From contig OZ005692.1 of NCBI GenBank assembly GCA_963930775.1, positions 4,264,135-4,328,134 on the forward strand: a DNA stretch of 64,000 nt, read 5' to 3'. The notes under the pieces were generated by a model. That model was not told where the DNA came from, did no database searches, and saw only the letters and a program-made list of their open reading frames with translations. Source of the DNA: Cliona cf. orientalis. Taxonomy: Eukaryota > Porifera > Demospongiae > Clionaida > Clionaidae. The translations under genes and the position numbers were made by a program. Positions 29,795-47,375 of the stretch are shown piece after piece (positions within the stretch are counted from its first letter, which is position 1; every line of letters starts with the position of its first letter).

Positions 29795-30603
29795 TATGAT
29801 CAATGTAATGTAGAGAGCAATGTTGGACAGCTACTAGCTAGTAGCTATTTTTCTGTCTAATAGTTCAAATCACGTACATGTAGCTAGTATTTATAGTCTT
29901 GTGGATTCTGCTCGACCTGGATACTACGTAGCTAGCTATGATCTAATAATTTTTTTTTTTGAATCTATGTGTACTTTCACCTGTACAATCAACTACAGTT
30001 AATCTAATTATTCTATAGCTAATCTTATACTGAAACAACAACAGTGAGGATTGAGAGTATTGTTGGATAGATAACCACCACCTGCAACTGCCATCGAAAT
30101 AATTAAACAGGAAAAGAACGACATCAACAGATGGCCTACAAACATGCTTATGCTTGGGAGCAAACAATTTTTGCCGTATTTGGTACAATAATGCTGCATG
30201 CACAAGCAGTGATGATTTAATTAATAGCAGCCACTAGTAGCAAATGTATAGGATCATGAGGGCAAAATTTTCTCATTTATTTTACAGAAATTCTGTCCTA
30301 TCCTCTGATAAAATTTAATGTGTAGGAAAGCTCATGTATTAGTAAAAGAAGTCTTACTTTTGGTCCAGTGTGATGGATGTACGTATAGCTACAGTTGCAA
30401 TAATATTATGTCATTATGTAGCATGCATGATATCAAGAATAACTCTGAAATCCATATTATTTTCGTCTAGTGTCATTGCATGTGATATTGCAATTATAGC
30501 AAGGTAATATAATATAGTAATGAAGTATGAATTTCATCAGGGTCTGCAATAAAAATAGTCATGACCTGTCTTACCATAAGGTAGTGCTAAATAATGGTAT
30601 ATA
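29795..30603. other. Presumed 5' flank of the membrane-protein gene; no gene seen
   Basis: AT-rich, with a T run near 29949-29959 and no clear TATA box at a convincing distance. Open frames at 29943-30205 on the minus strand are short, overlap and have no recognisable domain. Confidence 0.4.
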
Positions 30604-30648
30604 CCGTATAGCCGGAAAATTTGGCGGGAATTAAATTTGGCGGATTGG
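30604..30648. repeat. Left TIR of the pogo-like transposon
   Basis: Begins CCGTATAGCCGGAAAATTTG and contains two copies of AATTTGGCGG; two more follow just inside (about 30670-30697). Confidence 0.85.
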
Positions 30649-30821
30649 CCCCAATCAGCGCGAACAAAAATATTGGCGGATTTAAATTTGGCGGACGGAC
30701 ACCTAGGCGCTAGGCACGCCCACGCGCTTAGCGCTTGCGCACGCCATGCGCTCGAGCGCTGATTGAGATAAGGGGAGTGGCTTCAATACGTATCAATCGA
30801 GCTAGTGCGATCGCGAGCAAC

Positions 30822-31841
30822 ATGGAGTCTGAGCTAACCCTGGACAGCTGCATTCGAGGGCATCACGTTTACAAGAATGTCTGGACTCCAATCATGGGCG
30901 AGCAGTTGTCCTGCAAAAGAGAAACCGGGAACAACAAGGATCGCTATGCAGTCGCAGTACTTCAAGATCGCAACACGGTTGGCCATTTACCCAGGAAGAT
31001 ATCTGCTGCCTGCTCCTTATTTCTCCAGAGAGGAGGCTCTATTCGTTGCATCGTCACAGGGGAACGTTGCTATTCCAGTGATCTACCTCAAGGAGGTTTA
31101 GAAGTGCCCTGCATGCTACGGTTTAACGGTCAGCTGAACGACGTGTTAAAATTGAAGAAGCTGTTGACACCTGCTGGAACCAATAGTGGTGCAAATGAAG
31201 AACCAGTGATCGAACAGCCGTCAAAACGAAGAAAGATAGACTTAGACCCTGTTATCATTGATGATGAGAAGATGAGTGAGGATGAGGATGGTGGTGCAAG
31301 GAAAATCTGGATGTCAGACCCAGTCAGTCACATCGAACTCAGTCAAAAAGATAAGAGTGCACTAACAATGGGTGATTGTTTGAATGATAATCACATCAAT
31401 CTTGCTCAAGAACTTCTCAGGAGGCAGTTTAGAAATCTGTCGGGACTTAAGTCCACTTTATGGTTGACCAAGCTGAAAGAGCCACTCTCTATTGATGCTG
31501 TACAAGTTCTTCACACGCGAGGGAATCACTGGATCGTTGCCTCTACAATTGGATGCTCTGTTGGTGAAGTGAATGTTTTTGACTCCCTGTACTCCTCTAT
31601 TGACGCAGCAACACTGAAGTTGCTCAAGCAGATCTTCGGAGTTCACATCAAGGTGAAGATGACGAAGTGTTCTCAGCAAACTGGCAGTCGAGACTGTGGA
31701 CTGTTTGCAATTGCCAACTGTACAGCCCTAGCACATGGTAGCCATCCTAGCATTATCACTTTCAACCAAGATGCCATGCGACAGCACTTGTTTAACTGCT
31801 TTGAATCATTTCATTTCACCCCATTCCCTAATTCAGAGTAG
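30822..31841 (+). CDS. Transposon protein with HIRAN-like and Ulp1/SENP-like domains
   Basis: 339 aa from the ATG at 30822 (context AACATGG). Residues about 12-100 match a HIRAN-like domain (GEQLSCKRETGNNKDRYAVAV, VGHLPRKIS, IRCIVTG), a fold linked to DNA-end binding. A basic KRRK (135-138) is followed by DPVIIDDE and more acidic residues, which reads like a SUMO-interacting motif. Residues about 175-335 form a C48-type cysteine protease with all catalytic residues: His236 (GNHWIV), Asp254 (NVFDSL), Gln286 and Cys292 (SRDCGLFA). It may remove SUMO or a related modifier from the transposase or host chromatin. That role is inferred. It sits tail to tail with the transposase gene, 170 bp apart. 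Confidence 0.8.
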   Translation: MESELTLDSCIRGHHVYKNVWTPIMGEQLSCKRETGNNKDRYAVAVLQDRNTVGHLPRKISAACSLFLQRGGSIRCIVTGERCYSSDLPQGGLEVPCMLRFNGQLNDVLKLKKLLTPAGTNSGANEEPVIEQPSKRRKIDLDPVIIDDEKMSEDEDGGARKIWMSDPVSHIELSQKDKSALTMGDCLNDNHINLAQELLRRQFRNLSGLKSTLWLTKLKEPLSIDAVQVLHTRGNHWIVASTIGCSVGEVNVFDSLYSSIDAATLKLLKQIFGVHIKVKMTKCSQQTGSRDCGLFAIANCTALAHGSHPSIITFNQDAMRQHLFNCFESFHFTPFPNSE

Positions 31842-32011
31842 ATGCACATTACTTGCACCACACATTTTGTACAGTATACTTGCAGCTGCATTTTACAACC
31901 ATGTTATGATAAGAGACAGTGATTGTGATATTATATAATAATAATACAGATATTAAATTATGGTGGATCAAAGTTTACAGTTGTGGTAAGTACTGGTACA
32001 TGTATATACTT

Positions 32012-33493
32012 CTAGTCCTTTGTTACTTCAGTAACAGCACCATAAATTCCAGCTTTCTTAAATCCATTGACTGCAACTTCTGGTCTCCCTTCAAGTGCTT
32101 GCCATGCTGAGATTATCCAGCTGGCACTTTTAGTCTTGATGGCAGTGGAAGCCACATCCACCTTCACCTCTCCCAATGGGATGTCTTTCAGTTGCTTTTG
32201 TACTTCAGCAGCATACCAAGACTGAAACCTTTTCTTCATCTCATCTTTTATTGGTTTGTTGATTGAGATGTCCATTGGCTGCAACTTGTCTGTACAGTGT
32301 GCTGGCACTTGAACAGCAATGATATCATGCTTCTCTAGAAGGGTCAGGATATCGGATGTTGTTTGGCCACGAAAGCAGTCGAATATTGCGAGGGCAGGTT
32401 GGGATGTTGGCAAGTCCAAGCTTTTCCTCTTCTGTGAGATGAATGGCACTATTATCTTCTCGATGTATCGCTTCATCGTCTCCTCGTTGGACCAGTGATT
32501 GTCGCTATGCCAAATATCCCATCCTTTTGGAGCATCTACCTTGGGGTGACATCTAACTGTTTTCCCCTTGTAGATCACCTGAGGGGGAAGATACTCACCT
32601 ATCATTGTAGCCGCGAAGACAGCTGTAATTTGACGCTTGTCATCAGAATTTGCAATAGCTATCACCTTCTCACCAGCCCGGTTCATCGTCCATTGTCCTG
32701 TCGGTACAAGCTGAAGACCAGTTTGATCCCAATTAAATATTAGATCATTCGGTATCTCATTCATGACAACTTCTGCTTTGATGTCTGCTAGAAATTCTTC
32801 CTGAATCTCCTTGAATTGTGAAACAGTGAGTTTGCCAGCATTCGACCCCTTTCTTTTCACGTACCCCATGCGCTTCAGCAGAGATTTGGCCCAAGCTTTC
32901 GAGATCTCGATGTGGCCACCATGTTCTCGGAGTAATCCAGGATCTCGAGCACTGATTATCCCCAAAGCAGCTGCTTGGACAATAGTGGTGTTTACAACCC
33001 CTCCTGCAACTCGAAGGGCATTGATGTACTCCTGAACAGACTTGTCCAGTTCTGCACCGAGAAGTAGAGGCCTACCCTGAGCTTTAGTGGGTAAACTCTT
33101 CACTACAGGTACTGCGTTCACCTCTGTGATGGGCCCCTGCCCATCATCACCGCTCCTACCCGCTACACCACCGCCTTTCACTATCTCCTTCATCTTCTGA
33201 AGATACTCTGTTTTGAGTCTTCTGGCTGTTGTCTCTGGTACCCGTTTGCTGCCTACTCGAGAAAAGTGCCTAACAGCGCTTACAATTCCGTTTTCAGCAG
33301 CGTACTTCCCGATCGATGCTCTTTCTTCAGGTGTGTAGTCGTTGTAGCGTGTTGGCGTCCTCGGGTCCTTGCGAGTGATCTTCTTTTCTTGCAAGTTCTT
33401 CACACTATTATTGGCTTCTTTAATCTCCTTGTCACTTAACGATGGCACTCGCGTTGGCATACTCCCTTTCGAGAAGAATCGATACAGCGACAT
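32012..33493 (-). CDS. DDE transposase, pogo/CENP-B-like
   Basis: 493 aa from the ATG at 33493 (MSLYRFF). Residues about 50-215 are the DNA-binding part with two helix-turn-helix-like regions (YTPEERASIGKYAAENG; KAWAKSLLKRMGY). The catalytic DDE_1 region follows: Asp256 in FNWDQTGL, Asp372 in AIFDCFRGQ and Asp408 in LQPMDIS, giving DD35D spacing. The usual DNxxH after the second Asp is replaced by DCFRGQ. It would cut at the TIRs and join to TA. No frameshift or stop, and length normal for the family. Confidence 0.85.
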   Translation of the reverse strand: MSLYRFFSKGSMPTRVPSLSDKEIKEANNSVKNLQEKKITRKDPRTPTRYNDYTPEERASIGKYAAENGIVSAVRHFSRVGSKRVPETTARRLKTEYLQKMKEIVKGGGVAGRSGDDGQGPITEVNAVPVVKSLPTKAQGRPLLLGAELDKSVQEYINALRVAGGVVNTTIVQAAALGIISARDPGLLREHGGHIEISKAWAKSLLKRMGYVKRKGSNAGKLTVSQFKEIQEEFLADIKAEVVMNEIPNDLIFNWDQTGLQLVPTGQWTMNRAGEKVIAIANSDDKRQITAVFAATMIGEYLPPQVIYKGKTVRCHPKVDAPKGWDIWHSDNHWSNEETMKRYIEKIIVPFISQKRKSLDLPTSQPALAIFDCFRGQTTSDILTLLEKHDIIAVQVPAHCTDKLQPMDISINKPIKDEMKKRFQSWYAAEVQKQLKDIPLGEVKVDVASTAIKTKSASWIISAWQALEGRPEVAVNGFKKAGIYGAVTEVTKD

Positions 33494-33668
33494 GATGTCC
33501 ACCTTTCGCACACACCAAGAACGAGAAGAACAGCTGAGCTGAGATCAAGCCACACCCATTAACGTAAGTGCGCGTGCGCATCTCATTGCGCGCGGGCGGT
33601 CCAGTACGCAATAATAAGAGTTACTTAATATTGGCGGATTTTAATTTGGCGGTAGGCTCGTCCATCCG

Positions 33669-33714
33669 CCAATCCGCCAAATTTAATTCCCCGCCAAATT
33701 TTCCGGCTATACGG
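33669..33714. repeat. Right TIR of the pogo-like transposon
   Basis: Reverse complement of the left TIR with one extra base; inside it lie further TTGGCGG words (about 33632-33652). Confidence 0.85.
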
Positions 33715-34277
33715 TAGGTTAAAAGTTCGGTGCTGCTTTCATCTGCGTATGTGCACTGTACTGACTGGCACTCGATTGTACATAGCTAATGTTCAATCAC
33801 ATTATCCCACGATTGTGACATCAAACATAATTGATTTTGATTGCTATCACAGAGGGTCCCATTGTATGGTGTACTATATACTATACACCTGCATGGCCAG
33901 GCCTGACCAGGTGGCCCAGTGTAGTATATATTAATAGATTTAACTTCTGTTCAATACATTTCAAGGGCTTCATTTGGCTTCTATATACACAAAGCAAAAG
34001 ATCACGCACGCATGGTCATGCCATTCTATATTGTTTTGTCTTCTTCACACACACATGCAGTCTGAGGCAGTTTCTGCTGCTAGAATATAAATAGAGGCAG
34101 CTTTGGAGCAACTGGCAGTGTGCTGAATGTAATCAAGAGGAAATCATTGCACACCTTAAGACAAGACAGACTGAGCCCTTCCCTTACCCTGGACGAGTGT
34201 TGGATAGAGCTGGTGGTAGTGGCCCCCTAACAAGACTCCGAGGCTCCTCTATCACTGATATTTCACTGGAATTCACC

Positions 34278-46781: not shown

Positions 46782-47165
46782 GGGTATGTTAACTGGTTTG
46801 TATCCCCACTGTTGTAATAGCACTACAAGTGTGGTGCCTGAGTCTGACCACTGGGCCAGGTACCAGTAGTAGTCAGCTATACCACAGGGCAATATCATGA
46901 TATTGCCCTAGCCACAGGGCAATATCCAGTATACTGCCCTGGCGGTAGCTTTGATCTATGTCATAGGTGGGATACAATAAAAGTTTATTATTATAATGAT
47001 CCAATCACTGTCAGGAGTATCAGCATATCATAACTAATTAACTACTAGCCTAAGGTTACACTACCAGCTGGTATGTATTATTATAGCAAATTGATCTCTC
47101 CAGTGAGCTATTCTTAGATTAAAATTAAATATATATAATACTTCCCACTTGCTATGCGTTCAATA

Positions 47166-47375
47166 CCATATAGCGGGAAATTTTCGAGGGAGAAAACTTT
47201 CACGAATCGGTAGGAAAGGAGCATTTTGCTGAGAAAATTTTCGCAGAATACGGTTAAAACTGGTCACATAATGGGTGTGGCATGCCTAGAATGTCGTGGA
47301 GAAAACTTTCGCGGATGGCTGAAGAATCGTGAAATTCGTGAAAGTTTTCTCCCTCGAAAATTTTCTGCTATACGG
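47166..47375. mobile_element. MITE with CCATATAGC TIRs and GAGAAAACTTTC words
   Basis: 210 bp. Left end CCATATAGCGGGAAATTTTC, right end its inverse as CCGTATAGCAGAAAATTTTC. The words AAAACTTTC and AAAATTTTCG recur on both arms. TA precedes it; the right side reads TT, so the duplication is imperfect. The outer CCGTATAGC matches the TIR tip of the transposon at 30604-33714. Confidence 0.7.

Follow-up and report, generated by a model that had tools for sequence, protein, structure and literature searches.

Does a pogo-type transposon of the sponge Cliona cf. orientalis own a second gene, and is this gene a working part of the element or a passenger? Pogo and Tc1/mariner elements are usually regarded as one-gene transposons, and an earlier note, made from the letters alone, had described a pogo-like element with its own HIRAN-Ulp1 gene in a 64,000-nt stretch of contig OZ005692.1 (the window). 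The sequence confirmed a pogo-type element with its TA duplication at 30602-33716 (Table 1). Counted with the TA, the TIRs at 30602-30649 and 33668-33716 are 48 and 49 bp long and 98% complementary, in agreement with the TA duplication and nearly identical repeats of about 45 bp proposed before. Two intact, convergent ORFs lie between them, the accessory gene on the plus strand and the transposase gene on the minus strand, as the earlier note had read them. The subterminal D1 repeat units may serve as sites for the transposase. An Rfam search of the window returned no match.

Table 1. Features of the element (window coordinates)
Feature	Position	Strand	Evidence
Left TA target-site duplication	30602..30603	.	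sequence
Left TIR, begins CCGTATAGCCGGAAAATTTGGCG	30604..30649	+	repeat comparison, 98% complementary to right TIR
Left subterminal TIR-like repeat unit	30669..30694	+	repeat family D1; 96% direct copy at 33627-33652
Accessory gene, HIRAN-C48, 339 aa, intact	30822..31841	+	ORF, Pfam
HIRAN domain and conserved C-terminal LPQGGLE.PC stretch, aa 8-115	30843..31166	+	PF08797, profile vs HLTF structures
Basic nuclear-signal-like patch KRRK, aa 135-138	31224..31235	+	K135 and K138 invariant in 7/7 aligned HIRAN-C48 proteins
SIM-like stretch VIIDD, aa 144-148, not conserved	31251..31265	+	strict SIM pattern count
C48 (Ulp1/SENP-type) protease domain, aa 171-338; H236, D254, Q286, C292	31332..31835	+	PF02902, SENP1 by profile, catalytic residues
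Pogo-type transposase, 493 aa, intact; D256, D372, D408 (DD35D)	32012..33493	-	ORF, Pfam, aligned catalytic residues
Right subterminal repeat unit	33627..33652	+	repeat family D1
Right TIR	33668..33714	-	repeat comparison with left TIR
Right TA target-site duplication	33715..33716	.	sequence

The element has the traits of the pogo superfamily, namely a Pfam DDE_1 domain (E 1.4e-13, 51.3 bits; cut-off 22), three catalytic Asp with the spacing of 35 that had been noted, the TA duplication and TIRs. Reported spacings, in the cited parts of PMC7386202, are DD29-36D in Tigger and DD35D in Passer and Fot. The three Asp are kept in 39/41, 38/40 and 37/38 of the transposase rows that have a residue at the respective position. 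The DNA-binding region is weakly recognised (HTH_Tnp_Tc5, 18.8 bits, below the cut-off of 22.2); a deep relative (C2_13569000) passes HTH_Tnp_Tc5 and the Brinker DNA-binding domain, not CENP-B_N.

The accessory protein exceeded the Pfam cut-offs for both domains previously assigned to it, HIRAN (E 4e-6, 27 bits; cut-off 24.7) and Peptidase_C48 (E 3.7e-5, 24.1 bits; cut-off 20.7), and the His-Asp-Gln-Cys protease set that the earlier note had called complete is indeed present. HIRAN (PF08797) was found in 16/16 relatives at E 0.01, and three of four relatives scanned singly fell under the Pfam cut-off. Searched against solved structures, the HIRAN family profile matched only HLTF HIRAN up to E 10 (2mzn, 5bnh, 4xzf, 4s0n, 4xzg). 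At the site that corresponds to HLTF N91, N stands in 37/37 rows; D94 is matched by D in 35/37 and H110 by H in 36/37, near copies and decayed copies included; the HLTF NN90,91AA mutant is reported to be unable to bind DNA (PMC4666394, in part). The transposon HIRAN has not retained the stacking pair Y72/Y93 of HLTF, and therefore binding of 3'-ends may differ from that of HLTF. The C48 catalytic H, D, Q and C are complete in 13 of the 15 pogo-linked rows. Among eight open-frame accessory genes, second codon positions change least between families while synonymous sites are at or close to saturation, and amino-acid identity is 46-66% in HIRAN, 34-50% in C48 and 15-31% in the linker. The KRRK patch may act as a nuclear signal. 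The VIIDDE stretch, earlier taken as a SUMO-interacting motif, exists but is not conserved: we rejected the SIM as a conserved feature, as the strict pattern occurs in 3/14 linkers, all from three near-identical copies, and at least three were reached in 62/500 shuffles. Separately, some C48-PHD proteins display SIM-like stretches by eye, outside the strict-pattern count. The Pfam scan of the accessory protein detected no DNA-binding domain besides HIRAN and no RING or SWI/SNF domain, and an AlphaFold2 model from the one sequence had a mean pLDDT of 34.

Such an arrangement recurs far beyond the window. A search limited to the best-scoring candidates gave 38 genes with this type of HIRAN, a match over residues 64-268 being excluded; 33 of them have a pogo DDE gene within 3.5 kb, where 0.08 were expected. 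Among Pfam HIRAN loci, 23/97 lie within 3.5 kb of a transposase (0.5 expected; 150 DDE_1 and 18 transposase loci), and 74/97 lie away from any listed DDE_1 or transposase locus; two of three such distant loci examined were other kinds of HIRAN gene. HIRAN was found with 22 transposase families less than about 70% alike, delimited by a greedy cut at 30% difference, and the transposase and HIRAN distances of these families correlate (r 0.74; 0/5000 permutations as high). For the C48-bearing families alone (n=8), the correlation was weak (r 0.30; 363/5000 permutations as high). Of the 22 HIRAN-bearing families, 8 also have C48 and 14 do not; HIRAN is the constant partner and C48 is optional. Eight of the 41 rows of the transposase tree had no HIRAN match, five of them being compact elements of 1.8-2.1 kb between TIRs, so that not every relative depends on HIRAN. 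Since many pogo elements that are only distantly related have the same HIRAN gene, it seems to be an enduring functional component and not a stray passenger. The earlier interpretation is partly supported: the pogo element does have its own HIRAN-Ulp1 gene, but the partner is not peculiar to the window element. Viral contigs searched for the transposase, and viral and prokaryotic contigs searched for HIRAN, yielded pattern matches and no relative.

The genome contains two near-identical full copies, with one frameshifted gene in each, and 698 TIR ends that match the element; 25 elements of the group are flanked by TA on both sides, some having been located via a pattern that contains TA. Elements with these TIRs that lack the plus-strand gene, which the earlier note held would speak against its reading, do occur as many short TIR-bounded copies, but these lack the transposase gene too. 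Readable transposase-bearing elements with CCGTATAGC at one or both ends retain HIRAN in 15/15 cases and C48 in 12/15. In a relative for which no TIR was found (C1_6577542), C48 is reduced to a 31-aa remnant.

The reading that we prefer, at about even confidence, is that of a two-gene, TA-inserting pogo transposon with a HIRAN subunit working at DNA ends or forks, where C48 in some lineages deSUMOylates proteins. The structure of the element, the domains, the catalytic and DNA-binding-type residues, the coding constraint and the co-divergence of the two genes support it. The transposase would cut and paste the element, while the accessory protein, probably acting in the nucleus, would bind single-stranded or 3'-ended DNA through HIRAN, at replication forks or where the element is excised and inserted. 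Where a lineage also has C48, as that of the window element does, the protease would strip SUMO or a related modifier from the transposase or from repair proteins at these ends. As predicted from sequence, end binding, the protease substrate, the nuclear place and a benefit to transposition are putative. A broader version seems improbable to us, in which an entire branch of pogo elements would be a two-protein machine whose HLTF-like HIRAN recognises DNA ends or forks and couples the transposase to them, some lineages adding a SUMO protease that edits PCNA, the transposase or repair factors.

Separate capture of C48 in two transposase groups, instead of a single capture, is less likely than not. 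In its favour, rows with C48 fall into two groups of the transposase tree, forcing them together (17 rows, with three C48-less relatives) lowers the log-likelihood by 12.4 units (borderline AU p of 0.045), and C48 occurs without a HIRAN match in one further pogo-type family. However, the C48 tree places the 15 pogo-linked domains on one side against five C48-PHD proteins (support 79/90), the window group has support of only 68/99 in the transposase tree, and one capture followed by losses would fit equally, as would exchange between elements. It is somewhat unlikely that the target of C48 is not SUMO but ubiquitin or NEDD8, or that its activity is of another kind. A single-sequence search did retrieve the bacterial deubiquitinase OtDUB (E 0.0012) and no SUMO protease, and the lack of conservation of the SIM-like motif points the same way, whereas the HIRAN-C48 family profile ranked SENP1 first among solved structures (E 9e-6), followed by a Ulp1-like SUMO protease.

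We regard as unlikely a counter-silencing role, in which the accessory protein on element DNA would remove SUMO from silencing proteins and so keep the element expressed, HIRAN being a mere anchor. It would agree with the 13 complete protease sets, with the promotion of heterochromatin and Argonaute-directed silencing by SUMO (PMC8131101, in part) and with the proposed aid of TET/JBP enzymes of fungal DNA transposons in silencing escape (PMC12730594, in part). Since 14 of the 22 HIRAN-bearing families are without C48, however, de-SUMOylation cannot be the common function, and HIRAN is the sole DNA-binding domain seen in the accessory protein. Capture of genes by transposons is generally known, but the passenger account, a chance acquisition of a host gene by a single element, is very improbable and was rejected on the grounds of recurrence in 22 diverged families, co-divergence with the transposase and coding constraint.

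Retention of HIRAN across many diverged families would mean that some of these elements require a second protein or benefit from one, and HIRAN hints at cellular handling of the cut ends. The optional C48 fusion offers a natural experiment between families with and without it, on whether SUMO removal aids transposition or evades silencing. The broader two-protein version, if true, would give a transposon its own equivalent of fork-remodelling and SUMO-editing machinery.

In comparison with known systems, the element shares DDE_1, DD35D, the TA duplication and TIRs with the pogo superfamily, whose members are reported, in the cited parts of PMC7386202 and PMC7325037, with one or two ORFs encoding transposases; the window element adds an opposite-strand second gene for HIRAN-C48, and its relatives one for HIRAN with or without C48. 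Neither paper mentions HIRAN in its main text (0 occurrences), and no report of a HIRAN-carrying transposon was found among the titles and abstract starts of the papers listed from the open-licence PMC literature. The earlier note's statement that Ulp1 occurs in other transposon classes holds for Ginger1 and Mutator, DNA transposons carrying Ulp1 (C48), OTU or PHD domains, some of those with Ulp1 also having PHD (PMC2836005, in part), while its Zisupton/KDZ example was not confirmed in the literature consulted. In Ginger1, Ulp1 is the C-terminal domain of the transposase; the window element has no Ginger1-type integrase-like transposase joined to Ulp1 in one protein, and its C48 is encoded apart from the DDE_1 transposase, in a neighbouring gene that joins it to HIRAN. 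With HLTF (PMC4666394, in part) the transposon HIRAN shares the N91 position, but the transposon protein is without RING, SWI/SNF and the Y72/Y93 pair and has the additional conserved LPQGGLE.PC. With the SUMO proteases SENP1 and Ulp1 it shares the C48 profile and the H-D-Q-C set, here fused behind HIRAN and with a specificity predicted from sequence. The TET/JBP genes of fungal DNA transposons, as described in the cited part of PMC12730594, are likewise one accessory enzyme gene in many transposon lineages, with another enzyme, other transposon lineages and other hosts.

The pogo-type transposon that the earlier note had described, with flanking TA, near-identical TIRs, a DD35D transposase and a convergent gene for a 339-aa protein, is present in the window; its two-gene make-up is conserved, and the accessory protein is intact. 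Its TIRs of 48 and 49 bp are 98% complementary, and a 26-bp TIR-like unit is repeated internally near both ends. The 493-aa transposase on the minus strand has a DDE_1 domain over the cut-off and DD35D spacing, and a stop-to-stop gap of 170 bp separates it from the convergent accessory gene. The HIRAN and C48 (Ulp1/SENP-type protease) domains proposed for the accessory protein were borne out by profile HMMs, each scoring over its Pfam cut-off. When 16 HIRAN proteins of this genome were built into a profile and searched against the PDB up to E 10, HLTF HIRAN entries alone came back (5 distinct sequences, best E 5e-4); all 16 proteins matched PF08797 at E 0.01, and three of the four HIRAN-only relatives scanned singly missed the curated cut-off. 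With a profile of seven HIRAN-C48 proteins, SENP1 ranked first (E 9e-6), followed by a Ulp1-like SUMO protease. Both folds are putative, assigned by sequence profile alone. Elsewhere in the window, an isolated TIR-like end at 47164-47177 (TACCATATAGCGGG, one mismatch) may be the remnant of a short element that has decayed.

Positions of the window element and of related features in the genome (divergent pairs are named by contig and position)
Feature	Position	Strand	Basis
Element including TA on both sides	window 30602-33716		sequence
Transposase N-terminal motif	window 33473-33493	minus	
Pogo-type family with C48 beside DDE_1, copy	C14:2584150-2586460		
Same family, copy	C2:8096007-8097897		
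Same family, copy	C10:1743196-1745083		
Divergent gene pair	C10_4165200		
Divergent gene pair	C11_5078000		
Divergent gene pair	C1_21952200		
Divergent gene pair	C2_13569000		

The genome search (216.8 Mb, 149 contigs) revealed two further full copies, on contigs C18 and C8, which carry 4 and 5 substitutions relative to the window copy across 3.1 kb and whose 1.5-kb flanks share nothing with the window flanks except an 18-bp match; therefore, the element moved recently. The C8 copy has its accessory gene frameshifted by a 10-bp deletion and the C18 copy its transposase by a 1-bp insertion, so that among the three full copies both frames are open in the window copy only. The TIR pattern of this family matched 346 + 352 ends in the genome and none in the reversed control. 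Because many TIR pairs are separated by a few hundred bases that contain no gene match, we infer from these pairs and the pattern counts that non-autonomous copies account for most of the 698 ends.

The association between HIRAN and pogo elements extends across the genome. Among the matches listed, a pogo DDE locus lies within 3.5 kb of 33 of the 38 HIRAN genes of the window type (0.08 expected), a count that is independent of the hand-picked regions and excludes one further HIRAN match (residues 64-268). Conversely, 30 of 150 DDE_1 loci among the best-scoring candidates have a HIRAN locus within this distance. Fifty regions, a non-random sample, were picked for transposase, HIRAN or C48 matches; 42 contain a transposase and 37 a HIRAN. 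The transposase tree has 41 rows, one with fewer than 240 aligned residues having been dropped, and comprises 14 elements with HIRAN and C48, 19 with HIRAN only and 8 with neither. C15_4521000 and C3_3656400 are HIRAN-only relatives, without C48, of the HIRAN-C48 family C4_7925569. Among the HIRAN-less elements, C1_6577542 retains a 31-aa C48 remnant, C1_34266392 is a close relative of a HIRAN-bearing element, and C4_4828200 spans the transposase only in part. The other five (C1_23792752, C6_1532704, C1_25318622, C11_5262000 and C9_3223600), where a tblastn search for HIRAN found none, are compact, TIR-bounded and 1.8-2.1 kb long. C1_23792752 and C6_1532704 are near-identical and transposase-only, and their TIRs differ from those of the window element (TACTGTAAACCCAATAATGTTA).

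The genome profile searches score the best candidates only, and the genome has at least 97 HIRAN matches; 74 of the 97 Pfam HIRAN loci are not near a DDE_1 or transposase locus among the matches listed. Three of these were inspected. The first (C5:7032585-7033186, L079 1286-1887) is a 600-bp TIR-bounded non-autonomous element retaining a HIRAN fragment, and L078 and L080 hold different kinds of HIRAN gene. Nested inside the L079 element is a second small TIR end, and the Pfam HIRAN matches at C5:7451172 and C6:6012461 resemble its own. L080 (404-1495) has a 363-codon frame; in L078 (1230-1508), HIRAN occupies a short frame adjoining one with a chromodomain-like end, by eye.

Gene orientation is convergent in 30 of the 34 two-gene regions and divergent (head to head) in 4. 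By tblastn, HIRAN also stands beside transposases 23-30% identical to that of the window (C7_1237000, C2_13569000, C13_4216300); therefore, either the link is old or the gene has been exchanged between pogo families, whose branches in the tree are long. For the co-divergence test, 33 elements were reduced to one row for each of 22 families by a greedy cut at 30% transposase difference. Transposase and HIRAN distances correlated with r 0.74 (as high in 0 of 5000 permutations), and with r 0.80 in the 18 ingroup families. For the eight families bearing C48, r was 0.58 for transposase-C48 (0 of 5000 as high), 0.30 for transposase-HIRAN (363 of 5000) and 0.36 for HIRAN-C48 (561 of 5000). Among eight open-frame accessory genes, synonymous sites have reached or almost reached saturation between families, second codon positions are least changed, and the linker is far below HIRAN and C48 in conservation. 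C5_7068234 and C6_5311810 form the only close pair once window-family copies are set aside; in this pair, dN/dS was 0.11 for HIRAN (4 differences) and 0.72 for C48 (7 differences), the latter being no demonstration of recent C48 constraint.

The HLTF HIRAN mutant NN90,91AA does not bind DNA, and Y72 and Y93 hold a dinucleotide, according to an excerpt of PMC4666394. In a profile alignment with HLTF, whose rows take in near and decayed copies, the N91 position is N in 37/37 HIRAN rows, D94 is D in 35/37 and H110 is H in 36/37 (the latter two numbered by counting from N90/N91), and W21, near Y72/Y73, is W in 34/37; Y93 of HLTF is not retained. All of the His-Asp-Gln-Cys protease set is present in 13 of the 15 pogo-linked rows, the exceptions being the decayed C5_5911279 and C10_5677978 (Cys to Tyr). 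In a KRRK-like patch, K135 and K138 are invariant in 7/7. HIRAN would bind DNA ends or single strands during transposition, and C48 may edit modifiers of the proteins there. HIRAN occurs without C48 in 14 of the 22 families, which argues that the common function lies in HIRAN. Pogo transposase is reported to bind PCNA. The transposase begins with MSLYRFF, MSLLRYF or a looser variant in 15 matched frames, including three window-family copies; this start resembles a PCNA-binding box without its glutamine and is a tentative lead.

No published report of a HIRAN partner of pogo elements, or of its fusion to Ulp1, was found: among the papers listed by searches of the open-access PMC literature, none links HIRAN to a transposon, and the word HIRAN is absent from the main text of two pogo-element surveys. 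Accessory genes and Ulp1 domains in transposons are already known. In another pogo-type family, the C48 frame shares its strand with the DDE_1 frame and is no more than 1.5 kb away from it, with no HIRAN beside it among the matches listed; this suggests that pogo elements gained C48 more than once. The HIRAN-C48 fusion itself may have had one origin or several. HIRAN-less C48 loci are concentrated on contig C1 (55 of 78 among the matches listed; 37.5 of 216.8 Mb), and decayed pogo elements account for two of the 78. Five other C48 loci were read (L071-L075), with C48 at or over the cut-off in three and a PHD finger match behind C48 in all five, two over the PHD cut-off; L074 is the one copy read of that pogo-type family. 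Some C48-PHD loci have open frames of ~1100-1150 codons. The long C48-PHD frame of L075 (C1:34255000-34259500), the one C1 locus read, resembles a Mutator-type transposase, though Pfam shows none. Since Ulp1 together with PHD is known in Ginger1 and Mutator transposases, as stated in an excerpt of PMC2836005, the C48 domain may have passed from transposon to transposon.
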